Part shown: positions 11,042 to 31,558 of the stretch, in pieces | Layout of the letters: each line of letters begins with the position of its first letter | Position numbering within the stretch: position 1 is the first letter of the stretch | Assembly: GCF_019880245.1 (NCBI RefSeq) | Contig: NZ_CP082286.1 | Coordinates: 1,568,521 to 1,632,520, forward strand | From: Halobaculum roseum | GTDB taxonomy: Archaea > Halobacteriota > Halobacteria > Halobacteriales > Haloferacaceae | DNA length: 64,000 bases | Reading direction: 5' to 3' | Made by a program: the position numbers and the translations under genes | Notes under the pieces: model-generated | The model's database searches: none | What the model was told of the DNA's origin: nothing | The model's input: the letters and a program-made list of their open reading frames with translations, nothing else

Positions 11042-12907
11042 CTACTCCGGGTGGAGCCGCCGCATCGCGGCCCGTACGTCCTCGCGGTCGCCGATGACGG
11101 TGACGCGGTCGCCCCTCCGCAGGGCGAACTCCGGGTCCGGGACGTGCGTCTCGCCGTCGCGGGCGACGAGCGCGATCAGGCTGTTCCCGGGGAGCTCGGA
11201 GCCGAGATCGGCGACCGTCTTGCCGTTCGTGTCCTCGGAGGTGATCTCGATCTCCTGAACGTCGCCCGAGCGGCCGATCTCGCCCATCCAGTTGGCGAGC
11301 GCGGGGCGCTCGATGTAGTTGTCGAGCGCCTGTGCGGTCGCGAACACCGACGAGACGGTGCGGACGCCCAGCTCCTCGAACGCCTCGACGTTGTTCGGGT
11401 TGTTCGCCCGGGCGAGGATCGTCTCGGGGGCGAACTTCGACTCGGCCAACTGGGCCACGAGCAGGTTCGCGTCGTCGTCCCCGGTGGCGGCGACGACGAC
11501 GCGGGCGTTCTCGGCGCCGGCCGAACGGAGCACGTCCGTGTCGGTGCCGTCGCCGATGTGGACCGTGTGGCCCTCGTTTCTGGCGGTCTGTACGACCTCC
11601 TCGTCGTTCTCGATGATGACCACGTTCTCGCCGCGGTCGTCGAGGCGGTCGGCGAGCGTCCGGCCCACCTTCCCGCCCCCGATGATGAGTACACGCATGG
11701 GTATGACGTCGAGCTTCTCCGCGATCTGTCTGGCGAACCCGCCCTCCAGCACCACCGTCGCCATGATGACGAGGAAGACGGTGCCCACGAGCGCGTTCGC
11801 CGCCGACTCCATGCCCGCGTTCGCCAGCTCGACGGCGAACAGGGTGGCGACCGACGCCGGGATGATGCCGCGCGGACCGACCAGCGACATGAACACGCGC
11901 TCGTTGCGCTGGAAGCTGTCCCCGACCGTCGACAGCATGACGAGCGCCGGCCGGATGAGGAACATCACCGCGGCGACGACGACGAGCCCGCCGAGACCCA
12001 GCCGGATCAGGTTGTCGAACTCCAACAGCGCCGCCAGCGAGATGAACACGAACGAGAGGACCAGCAGGGTGATGTCGCCCTTGAAGTCCGTGACCTGTTC
12101 CTCGTAGGGGATGTCGGCGTTCCCGAGCAGGATGCCGGCGACCGCGACCGCCGCGATCCCCGCCTCCGTTCGCACGAAGTTCGCCTCGCCGTACGCGACC
12201 AGCGCCCCCGCAAGCACGAGCAGGCGCGCGTTCTGCGGGGCGTTGCCCGGCGAGAGGTCCACGTACCGGAGCGCGTAGTAGACGACCGCGGCCACGGCGA
12301 CGCCGACGACGACCCCGACGCCGAGGCGTTCGGCGAACAGCGCGATCAGCTCGACGGGGTCGGTCGTGTCGGAGACGATCGCCTCGAAGATGACGACCGC
12401 GAGGATCGCCGCGGTCACGTCGTTGACGATCCCCTCGGTGTCGAGCGCGGTGGCGACCTTGTCGCGAACCGGCACCACCTCCAGGATGGGCGCGATCACC
12501 GTCGGCCCCGTCGCCACGAGCAGCGCCCCGATGAGCGCGGCGACGAGCCAGTCGACGCCGATCGCGACCCGCACGACCGCGGTCGTCGCGACGAACGCGA
12601 TGGCGGCGCCGACCGTGACGAGCCGGAGCGACGCCGCGGGCGCCTGCCGGAGCTCGTCGATCTTGAGGTGGAACGCCCCCTCGAACACGATGATCGCGAC
12701 CGAGAGCCCGACGATGGTCGACAGCCCAGTCAGCCCGAACGTCTCCTGGGTGACGATCCCCAGCCCCTCGGGTCCGAGGGCGATCCCCGCGGCGATGAGG
12801 AAGATGATGCTCGGGAGCTGAAACCGGTCGGAGAGCACTTGCGCGGCGACGCCGGTGGCGATGATGACGGCGACGATCGCGATCAGTTGCCCGGCGCCGG
12901 CCGACAT
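11042..12907 (-). CDS. Cation:proton antiporter (CPA family) with C-terminal TrkA/RCK domains
   Basis: A 621-residue protein. Residues 1-390 form a NhaP/KefB-like transporter with about 12-13 helices and the conserved helix-break region around TEGIVNDVTAA. From residue ~395 comes an RCK_N domain with the Rossmann motif IIGGGKVG and an acidic strand end (VVIIENDEE), then an RCK_C (TrkA-C) domain at about 535-615. It should exchange Na+ or K+ for protons, gated by nucleotide binding to RCK. Such fusions are common in salt-in haloarchaea. Unusually for this window, there is a strong Shine-Dalgarno, GGAGGTGA, starting 12 bases before the ATG, and a TTTTTATC box at about 12950, implying a leadered mRNA. 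Confidence 0.92.
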   Translation of the reverse strand: MSAGAGQLIAIVAVIIATGVAAQVLSDRFQLPSIIFLIAAGIALGPEGLGIVTQETFGLTGLSTIVGLSVAIIVFEGAFHLKIDELRQAPAASLRLVTVGAAIAFVATTAVVRVAIGVDWLVAALIGALLVATGPTVIAPILEVVPVRDKVATALDTEGIVNDVTAAILAVVIFEAIVSDTTDPVELIALFAERLGVGVVVGVAVAAVVYYALRYVDLSPGNAPQNARLLVLAGALVAYGEANFVRTEAGIAAVAVAGILLGNADIPYEEQVTDFKGDITLLVLSFVFISLAALLEFDNLIRLGLGGLVVVAAVMFLIRPALVMLSTVGDSFQRNERVFMSLVGPRGIIPASVATLFAVELANAGMESAANALVGTVFLVIMATVVLEGGFARQIAEKLDVIPMRVLIIGGGKVGRTLADRLDDRGENVVIIENDEEVVQTARNEGHTVHIGDGTDTDVLRSAGAENARVVVAATGDDDANLLVAQLAESKFAPETILARANNPNNVEAFEELGVRTVSSVFATAQALDNYIERPALANWMGEIGRSGDVQEIEITSEDTNGKTVADLGSELPGNSLIALVARDGETHVPDPEFALRRGDRVTVIGDREDVRAAMRRLHPE

Positions 12908-16583: not shown

Positions 16584-16722
16584 ACCGGGAGTTGGTGGTC
16601 CATCGGTTTTAGTTAGTCGGGTGCGTGTCAGACACTCGCACGACCGTCGTCGGACGGTAGTCGCCCGCCTACCGTCGGGACTCGCGGGATCGCGGCGCCG
16701 TCGCTGACGAGCGCGAGAGCGG

Positions 16723-17183
16723 CTGAGGGGAGTAAGCCCCCTTCTGTTCGGCCCGACATTCGGCTGAGCGTCCGCGTCGGTCGCGGGGCGCGTGCCCCGG
16801 TCGCTCGCGCGAGGCGCGAGCACCCGGACTACCATCGGGGCGGCCGCCGCGGCCGCCCGTCGACGCGGACTTGCACCGGCGAGGATTCGCCGTTCCATCC
16901 GTTCCCGCCCGTCTCGCGGCGTGAACCACGGCCCTCGGTGGGTTAGCTCCCTTCCCTCTCGGGTCGGTTCGCCCGCCCGCGGCGTCGCCGCGGGCGGTCG
17001 CGGCGACCGTTTCGGTCGCCGCGCGCACCTCATCGGTCGGGGCGGGGGGTCTCGTTGCTGTTCCAGAGCCAGCCGTCTCCGACTCCGGGCTTGCGCCCGG
17101 TCGCCCGTCCGGGGGTGGGGGGACTTTCCTCATGCGCCGTCGCCCGAGAGGGTCGAGCGCACGGGGGTCGGGCTCCCTCTGCC
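16723..17183 (-). ncRNA. rnpB: RNase P RNA (archaeal type A)
   Basis: On the minus strand the segment contains the universally conserved RNase P element GAGGAAAGTCC (17131-17121) near its 5' end and the matching 3' element CAGAAGGGGGCTTA (about 16747-16734). These are the two halves of the P4 catalytic core. The ends can pair as stem P1: GAGGGAG (17179-17173) with CTCCCCTC (16732-16725). Strong hairpins fill the interior. Total length is about 460 bases, as expected for haloarchaea. The RNA cleaves 5' leaders from pre-tRNAs with archaeal Rpp proteins. A GCTTTATCC box at 17208-17216 sits ~26 bases before the 5' end, marking its promoter. Exact ends are estimates. Confidence 0.93.
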
Positions 17184-28025: not shown

Positions 28026-28042
28026 GCGAGACCGCGGGGGAC

Positions 28043-28254
28043 GGCGGAGCGGTTCTGGTGCCGCTCCGCCCACGAGCGCGCCGTTCACGAGACCGGCGGT
28101 CTCGTGAGCGCACAAATCGCAGAGCGATTTGTGAACGCCGGTTCCCGTGGTCCTCGGCCTCACGGCCTCGGACCACGCTTTCGTTCCTCTGCGGCTCGGC
28201 CCCAAGACCTCGCCGCACACGGCCGTGGCCTCGAACCTTCGGTTCTCGGCCACG
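28043..28254. repeat. Cluster of five hairpin-forming inverted repeats
   Basis: The intergenic stretch between the membrane protein and eS6 holds five hairpins in ~210 bases: 28043-28052 with 28061-28070 (10/10 pairs); 28085-28095 with 28097-28107 (11/11); 28111-28120 with 28124-28133 (10/10, 3-base loop); 28146-28153 with 28170-28177 (8/8); and 28224-28230 with 28248-28254 (7/7, plus an inner GAACC/GGTTC stem). CGTTCAC (28082-28088) and GTGAACG (28131-28137) form an outer stem around two of them. Perfect arms across several different sequences suggest selection for secondary structure or remnants of small mobile repeats. Function unknown. Confidence 0.75.
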
Positions 28255-28296
28255 CTTTCGACGGTCTTTTCTCTCACCGCCGAGCATGACCCCGTA

Positions 28297-28836
28297 ATGG
28301 CTGAATTCAAGATCGTCGTGGGCGACGACGCCGGCGACACGCGGCAGTTCGACGTGGACGGACAGGACGCGAACCGATTCCTCGGCCGGGAACTCGGCGA
28401 CGAGGTCGACGGCGCGGCCGTCGGCATCGACGGCGTCGACCTGACGCTGACCGGCGGCTCCGACAAGGCCGGCCGCCCGATGCGCGAGGACGTGCCCGGC
28501 GGCGAGCTGAAGGAACTCCTGCTCGAGGGCGGCGTCGGCTACAAGCCCTCGCGCGACGGCGAGCGCAAGCGCGTCACCGTCCGCGGCCGCCAGGTCTCCG
28601 AGGAGACCGTCCAGATCAACGCCCGCGTCGAGGGCTCCATCGCCCAGGCGCTCGGCGAGGAGGAGGCCGACGACGAGGAGGCCGAAACCGAGGAAGCTGA
28701 GACCGAGGACGCCGACGCCGACGCGGACGACGAAGCCGACGCGGACGACGAAGCCGACGCGGACGACGAAGCCGACGCGGACGACGAAGCCGACGAAACC
28801 GACGCCGACGCAGACGACGAAGACGACGAGGAGTAA
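28297..28836 (+). CDS. rps6e: 30S ribosomal protein eS6
   Basis: A 179-residue protein whose first ~125 residues match archaeal eS6 ([64 protein letters not shown]). It is a small-subunit ribosomal protein. The C-terminal ~45 residues are an acidic tail made largely of DADDEA hexapeptide repeats encoded by four exact copies of an 18-base unit. Typical haloarchaeal eS6 proteins stop near 130 residues with a short acidic end, so this tail is extended. The in-frame GTG and ATG upstream lie inside the hairpin cluster and are discounted. Confidence 0.92.
28720..28791. repeat. Four perfect 18-base tandem repeats within eS6
   Basis: The unit GACGCGGACGACGAAGCC occurs four times in a row without mismatch (28720-28737, 28738-28755, 28756-28773, 28774-28791). 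The length, a multiple of three, keeps frame and adds DADDEA repeats to the acidic tail of eS6. Identity between copies points to recent slippage, and copy number may vary between strains. Confidence 0.9.
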
Positions 28837-31368: not shown

Positions 31369-31558
31369 GTGCGTGGCCGAACGCAGTGAGGCCACGAGAA
31401 CGCGAACGGTGAGTGACGCGAGCCGTGAGCGGGGTGCGCGGGCGAGCGACGCGAGCCCGCGATGGCGAGCGGGGAGGGACGACCCGCGAGCAGTGCGTGG
31501 CCGAACGCAGTGAGGCCACGAGAACGCGAACGGCGAGGGAAGCGAGCCGTGAGCGGGG
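31369..31558. repeat. Pair of 66-base near-identical direct repeats in intergenic DNA
   Basis: Copies at 31369-31434 and 31493-31558 match at 63 of 66 positions and are offset by exactly 124 bases. Each includes an inner hairpin, CGTGGCC and GGCCACG seven bases long around GAACGCAGTGA. The spacer contains related words (GCGAGCGACGCGAGCCCGCG). The same vocabulary (GAACGSAGTGAG) reappears at 28012 and, reversed, at 52801-52910. Reading frames here are by-products of the repeat. It is not an IS: no transposase and no target duplication seen. Confidence 0.8.

Follow-up and report, generated by a model that had tools for sequence, protein, structure and literature searches.

Very short noncoding hairpin elements raise an old open question, that of how they spread, and the question has been studied mostly in mitochondria and in bacterial REP sequences. 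Y1 transposases move REP and IS200-type hairpins; the palindromic elements of Rickettsia, which are bacterial and longer than the element described here, are also short and palindromic and are inserted in genes as well. Among haloarchaeal elements, SMR-A of Haloquadratum walsbyi is described in excerpts of one account (PMC3119063) as ~110 bp long; its terminal inverted repeats are prominent, it makes no target duplication, and its mobility is called enigmatic there. The same excerpts describe PATEs as short palindromic sequences derived from IS605 ends, without a duplication, and mention one 52-bp terminal-only PATE. REP palindromes carry a foot tag, GTAG or CGTC (excerpts of PMC3733652). In Haloferax volcanii, 503 termination sites were reported to have hairpins upstream, and a hairpin that was tested there produced 59% termination (excerpts of PMC7237163).

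Here we analyze an array of hairpins directly upstream of the eS6 gene in a 64,000-nucleotide stretch of the Halobaculum roseum genome (the window). We think it quite probable that palindromic modules of three dispersed types, called A, B, and D, accumulated here as a mosaic upstream of the eS6 promoter, and that D is a noncoding mobile element of 52 to 54 bp made of two tandem triloop hairpins.

Hairpins and putative promoter upstream of eS6

An earlier note on this DNA had claimed five hairpins between positions 28043 and 28254, and all five were confirmed there; together with a weaker sixth they fill the intergenic gap from the upstream open reading frame to eS6 (28026 to 28296; Table 1). 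Hairpins 4 and 5 each consist of an outer and an inner stem with a TC/TC internal loop between them. The remark that such regularity is unlike random GC-rich DNA was borne out as well. A 261-nt region folded at −148.4 kcal/mol, compared to −111.5 ± 4.8 kcal/mol for dinucleotide shuffles (z = −7.74; 0 of 200 shuffles). Perfect stems of at least 10 bp with loops of 3 to 14 nt numbered 70 in 459 kb of the same genome (a count inflated by the choice of several of the 21 stretches for containing known matches) versus 29 in one Markov-1 surrogate; even at this inflated rate, 0.03 perfect stems would be expected per 212 bp, whereas 3 were observed. The eS6 region of the window is 86% identical to that of Halobaculum gomorrense over 1,161 nt. 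The array had no Rfam match at the gathering score, and 16 further loci gave only two subthreshold matches, which we took as chance. The sole Rfam match in the window lies elsewhere and is the archaeal RNase P RNA (RF00373, 95.7 bits), at 16721 to 17183 on the minus strand.

Table 1. Positions of features at the eS6 locus, numbered from the first letter of the window
Feature	Position	Strand	Evidence or remark
Upstream ORF, 284 aa	27171..28025	+	Adjoins eS6 in 5 other fetched loci too
Probable mosaic array of palindromic modules, upstream ORF to eS6 promoter	28026..28254		Own-genome blastn, fold z, congener module sets
Hairpin 1, B-type palindrome (GGCGGAGCGG/CCGCTCCGCC)	28043..28070		10-bp stem, loop of 8
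CG dinucleotide, left edge of D	28082..28083		Empty versus filled sites
D, 52-bp double-hairpin module TTCAC...GTGAA (hairpins 2 and 3), probable insertion	28084..28135		R1 covariance model, 85.2 bits; covariation; empty sites
Hairpin 2, first hairpin of D	28085..28107		10-bp stem, triloop GGC
Hairpin 3, second hairpin of D	28111..28133		10-bp stem, triloop AGA
CG dinucleotide, right edge of D	28136..28137		Empty/filled comparison
Hairpin 4, A-type palindrome (GTGGTCC-tc-GGCC ... GGCC-tc-GGACCAC)	28147..28177		Presence at eS6 locus varies by species
B-type palindrome GCGGCTCGGC...GACCTCGCCGC, sixth, weaker hairpin between hairpins 4 and 5	28191..28216		16 genome places
Hairpin 5, A-type palindrome	28225..28254
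Putative eS6 core promoter (CTTTCGACGGTCTTTTCTCTC)	28255..28275	+	Same in 11/11 Halobaculum rows, recognizable in most of 18 others
eS6 gene	28297..28836	+	ATG at 28297

The very stable fold and the position of the array directly upstream of a ribosomal-protein gene would suit a structured leader controlling eS6, one of the possibilities in the earlier note; such a 5′ leader would be transcribed and bind a protein or ligand. However, the promoter-like block that follows the hairpins leaves almost no room for a leader. The block CTTTCGACGGTCTTTTCTCTCA was identical in all 11 eS6 loci of the genus Halobaculum, and most of 18 other rows contained a block resembling it (several of them with TTTCGACGT.CTTTTTAT) about as far from the ATG (29 rows were compared, from 30 loci; L035 was not parsed). 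In the window, the T-rich box of this block lies ~29 nt 5′ of the eS6 ATG. With the usual archaeal TATA-to-start spacing, the transcript would start at or near the ATG; thus, the hairpins, the last of which ends just before the block, would lie upstream of the promoter and outside the predicted start-to-ATG interval. Moreover, the hairpins turn over between Halobaculum species and the promoter block does not. The module set at the eS6 locus is A-B-A in some congeners and A-B-A-B-A in others, D is present there in 3 of 11 Halobaculum genomes (the window, which is also L010, and loci L009 and L015), and the same modules were found far from eS6. We therefore rejected the leader, which we regard as very improbable. 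The eS6 gene itself encodes a long acidic C-terminal tail (28680 to 28836) by tandem GACGCGGACGACGAAGCC-like repeats, and the length of this tail may vary between species.

Dispersed modules and pairing within D

The intergenic sequence gave 59 dispersed blastn matches in its own genome (E ≤ 10), and three module types recurred. The B module (GCGGCTCGGC...GACCTCGCCGC) was found at 16 genome places with up to 3 mismatches, versus 2 for a reversed-pattern control. Hairpin 1 is a perfect-stem variant of B (GCGGAGCGGTNCNGTGCCGCTCCGC; 12 forward places with up to 3 mismatches, none for the control), and in alignments its family is that of the module at 28191 to 28216 read on the other strand. D occurred at seven places in the genome on the reading strand. 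The A module corresponds to hairpins 4 and 5, and its exact arms are confined to these two copies, the genome search for exact A-type arms having returned only two other, chance-like matches. Between copies, arms differ in sequence and yet are compensated, e.g., ACAAATCGC/GCGATTTGT, ACGAGACGC/GCGTCTCGT, and CGAAAATCGC/GCGATTTTCG. Of the suggestion that the region is a decayed repeat element, the repeat part stands and simple decay does not: the modules are dispersed, form a mosaic, and are still changing between sister species. Another palindrome of the window, the perfect-arm repeat GTGGCCGAACGCAGTGAGGCCACG, is present at 31373 to 31396 and at 31497 to 31520, just downstream of and within the start region of a minus-strand open reading frame.

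A covariance model of D built from seven sequences (R1) gave matches in 10 of the 11 Halobaculum genomes, in 96 of 119 genomes and 25 of 28 genera of the family (E ≤ 1e−5), and in 41 of 294 genomes of the phylum (E ≤ 1e−6). The genome sample was partly chosen by matches, and some matches scoring below ~40 bits may be GC-rich hairpin pairs that arose by chance. Forty of the 41 phylum genomes with D are labeled as the same genome, family, or order (40/53) versus 1 of 241 others, a figure which assumes that 233 unlisted genomes all fall outside the order, as the kinship sorting suggests. By blastn, 37 plasmid records matched the Halorubrum D composite, including plasmids of Natrinema, Natronorubrum, Natronomonas, and Haloterrigena, and none matched the Halobaculum D composite. 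Searching 80 named 20-kb loci with R1 produced nine weak rows from four loci and no strong copy. We did not meet a description of D in the open-licence PMC literature that we consulted, which is no proof of absence.

The structure of D was assessed in 48 class 1 copies (alignment A3). Of 1,104 stem cells, 97.9% were paired; nine pairs had changed on both sides, giving 58 double-changed cells, which are partly block-like (few haplotypes of hairpin 3) and so represent few events. No shuffle out of 500 reached the observed covariation score, and the true register was the best of seven slides, none of the others coming near. The observed count of pairs was reached by 2 of 500 shuffles; the count of further pair types was reached by 126 of 500 and so lends no support. 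The triloops were hypervariable (1.3 to 1.8 bits per position, versus 0.33 in stems). Loops and their reverse complements both occurred, though not beyond chance (P = 0.07 to 0.91), when we looked for triloop inversion by hairpin flipping. Departures from pairing in the stems were as often G·T (11) as A·C (10); thus, the mismatches give no preference to either strand as an RNA, which speaks for palindromic DNA and not for an RNA read from one strand.

These data bear on the small RNA that the earlier note had listed among its possibilities. A multicopy family of small structured RNAs acting in trans would be expected to show strong covariation and a conserved double-hairpin shape, and both were seen. 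However, selection on a strand-specific RNA should favor G·U, the triloops are hypervariable, no Rfam family corresponds, and the orientation of D is inconsistent; moreover, copies lie inside transposons, and IS605-type ends carry D both ways round at one target (see below). For hairpins 2 and 3, then, a small RNA seems scarcely credible to us. The arms are indeed compensated in relatives, as had been anticipated of a functional RNA, but the compensation is between dispersed copies and by itself does not indicate RNA function. Covariation between dispersed hairpin copies should, more generally, not be taken as proof of such function.

Empty and filled sites, gene context, and sister species

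In each of four unrelated hosts, what distinguished filled from empty sites was D together with one CG, and this extra CG can equally be read as a duplication or as a CG brought by the insert. A 5-bp duplication (CGCCG) around D was ruled out, since the empty sites show one added CG only. In the first host, the B composite of Halobaculum, the empty site reads GACCTCGC[CG]CCGT and the filled site GACCTCGC-CG-D-CG-CCGT, with 20 empty rows of the form GACCTC(G/A)CCG-CCG and 23 filled rows of the form GACCTCGCCG-TTCAC...GTGAA-CGCCG. The D-less rows initially numbered 31, from which five were excluded by look as chance matches in coding sequence (L148, L153, L184, L257, and L264) and one as a misfiled filled site (L222); the remaining 25 comprised 20 with GCCG-CCG, four of an eS6-type variant (the window, L011, L017, and L018), and one further variant (L047).

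The second host is a scaffold of ~220 bp in genus g13, whose eS6 region is 94% identical to that of Halorubrum tebenquichense; the filled form is GGGACTCAAAGGGGCAG...GGCG-D-CGACGTAAGCACCG...CTGGGGCTTTGG. The empty junction GGCGACGYAAGCACCG was predicted beforehand, and all 12 genomes that were searched contained it with up to 2 mismatches. The match numbers are not counts of empty sites, since the mismatched matches include filled ones. All 10 exact junction matches that were fetched lay within the scaffold, with outer stems that change and, judged by eye, stay paired in most. One genome (G080) had 16 exact empty-junction places and no D match in the family search. The g13 repeat (L289 to L302, L308, and L320 to L329) is itself multicopy, structured, and Halorubrum-like; its long outer stem varies in sequence between copies and keeps its pairing, and in one copy (L299) the outer parts enclose an inverted interior. 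Some copies also carry another double-hairpin module, distinct from D (GTTCGAGAGAGC...GCTCTCTCGT... and another hairpin), seen in L256 at ~11763 to 11827 and as an optional insert in L289, L291 to L293, L296, and L308. This module, which also comes and goes, is possibly a second D-like family.

In the third host, IS6 transposase genes on plasmids, D plus CG lies within the palindrome GACCCGCCGACGGCgaaGCCGTCGCGGGTC in seven filled loci, compared with six empty ones. An IS6 family transposase is annotated at 5 of 6 empty loci, and no gene is annotated at any of the 7 filled loci; the stop-to-stop frame across the site is 228 to 240 aa long at every empty locus except L345 (119 aa) and 66 to 184 aa long at the 7 filled loci. 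The fourth host comprises left ends of IS605-type elements, with Y1_Tnp behind L268 and HTH_OrfB_IS605 behind L242. Here the empty form is GGGAGGGGATACAG-CG-CCG in L098 (exactly AG[CG]CCG), with CA in place of CG in L267, and the filled form GGGAGGGGATACAG-CG-D-CG-CCG was found in eight distinct loci, four of the 15 rows in this comparison being repeat places under another locus identifier and left uncounted. The two orientations of D were equally frequent at this target (L241/L268, L242, L246, and L247 versus L244 and L281 to L283), although they could also come from inversion. L330, from Natronomonas pharaonis, is a divergent filled case; at 1523 to 1664 of this locus (plasmid PL131), two D-like double hairpins lie in one IS605-type left end and flank a GGGAGGGGATAC motif.

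Since filled copies within a host are usually at the same position, each host may have received D just once or twice, with later amplification, gene conversion among its repeats, or exact loss of D accounting for the rest. At an extreme, D would be immobile by itself and built once into each host repeat, with later change due to recombination, gene conversion, inversion, or slippage between copies. The constant position within a host fits this alternative, as does the change in copy number of tandem arrays between sister species: at 506307/506449, G000 has two copies and G009 has one. In contrast, the same CG rule holds in four unrelated hosts, one of them with both orientations, so that several independent arrivals of D are needed. 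A D without mobility of its own is in our judgment unlikely, though not negligibly so.

Insertion by D itself, which we prefer, can be considered further in the comparison of G009 with G000. Within the subset of G000 stretches compared, 13 of 15 G009 loci were located (L206 and L251 have no orthologue there): D was present in both genomes at four, was missing from G000 at eight, and was ambiguous at one (L252, with an 18-bit match at the site). At position 365503 of G009, a tandem B-A array is common to the sister genomes and absent from nine other congeners, and D is present only in G009, in one unit.

Sixty-two copies of D correspond to 43 sites, and 37 of these were classified by gene context; the gap test leaves out one genic site and five that lie at the edge of a locus. 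Divergent gaps were avoided (5 observed versus 13.7 to 15.0 expected; P = 0.002 to 0.006), and convergent gaps were enriched. D showed no orientation bias relative to codirectional genes (8 versus 14; P = 0.29). Avoidance of divergent gaps and enrichment in convergent ones would be consistent with hairpins that terminate transcription or protect the 3′ end of the upstream gene, and the Haloferax volcanii hairpins upstream of termination sites offer a precedent (excerpts of PMC7237163). But avoidance of promoters is expected of any tolerated insertion too, and at this locus D is not followed by a U-tract. Nor would termination explain the exact CG empty sites, and D also lies within IS6 genes, within IS605-type ends, and in a further structured repeat. 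In this reading, the modules would be kept because bidirectional intergenic hairpins are useful; such a role appears rather improbable to us.

Proposed spread of D and its relation to known elements

In the model that we favor, D would enter a CG that lies within or next to another palindrome; it could do so either way round and would leave a filled site of D plus an extra CG. It would have spread partly by insertion and partly by hitchhiking with host repeats (B composites in Halobaculum, the structured repeat in Halorubrum, IS6 copies, and IS605-type elements), and within one genome it probably spread mainly with the host repeat. We infer gain as the direction of change, recognition at the level of DNA, and the involvement of an enzyme. 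The shape of the stems is constant while their sequence changes and the loops are free, which suggests that D is recognized as folded DNA, in the form of a hairpin or cruciform, and since the targets are palindromes or adjoin one, the target may be recognized in folded form as well. D has no coding capacity; most likely, the palindrome would be recognized by an enzyme that the cell supplies. The preferred candidate for the mover would be a host nuclease or recombinase, because no Y1 transposase (Y1_Tnp; PF01797) was found in D-bearing G001, G005, and G010 (it was found in 6 of 11 congeners, G000 included). Its absence from several carriers likewise leaves mobilization of D by RAYT or IS200 unsupported, although such mobilization may have taken place in the past. 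The analysis turned up neither a mobilizing enzyme nor an autonomous parent element.

A broader proposal, which we put forward tentatively, is that haloarchaea carry class-wide, transposase-free double-hairpin elements of ~52 bp that would be recognized by their shape. Their targets would be CG sites within palindromes of other repeats and transposons or next to them, and insertion would disrupt or mark those transposons; such elements might be a prokaryotic counterpart of the mitochondrial double-hairpin elements, moved by a structure-specific nuclease or recombinase of the host. D is found in cultivable archaea, its empty and filled sites are exactly defined in four unrelated hosts, and closely related species differ at many sites, so its mobility is directly testable.

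Compared with known elements, D resembles the intergenic palindromic units of bacterial REP/REPIN and BIME sequences with RAYT in that its array, too, is a mosaic of such units (excerpts of PMC2817692 and PMC3116915). A CGTC or GTAG foot was found in none of 48 aligned copies of D, 45 of which read CGTT (counted by eye from the alignment); some copies hosted by IS6 do read CGTC. In the excerpts of two REP surveys (PMC12306157 and PMC3733652), the terms looked for returned no mention of haloarchaea. Derivation of D from PATEs or IS605 was rejected, as the ends in L267 and L098 lack D where others carry D plus CG, making D an insert within such ends. MITEs are defined by terminal inverted repeats shared with a known transposon and by a target duplication; D has TTCAC/GTGAA ends in class 1 only and one extra CG at filled sites.

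SMR-A is like D in being haloarchaeal and noncoding, without a transposase, and both are found within or close to palindromes that belong to other mobile elements, including IS605-type elements (and, for SMR-A, PATEs), according to the excerpted account (PMC3119063). For D, these palindromes are the B palindrome, the Halorubrum scaffold, the palindrome in IS6 genes, and the IS605-type left ends. D is set apart from SMR-A, as described in that account, by its length of 52 to 54 bp, its two internal hairpins in place of prominent terminal repeats, and its one extra CG (PMC3119063). The double-hairpin elements of Allomyces mitochondria and the GC clusters of yeast mitochondrial DNA work in a way similar to D (excerpts of PMC2800124 and PMC4478555). 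With the mitochondrial elements D shares the two hairpins and the turnover between sister species, which is a likeness and not membership; they are organellar, unlike D, and those of Allomyces are reported, in the same excerpts, to lack a flanking duplication (PMC2800124 and PMC4478555). Shared ancestry of D and the mitochondrial elements cannot be claimed. We file D as short palindromic mobile DNA, a member of none of the kinds compared here and nearest to the small mobile repeats.
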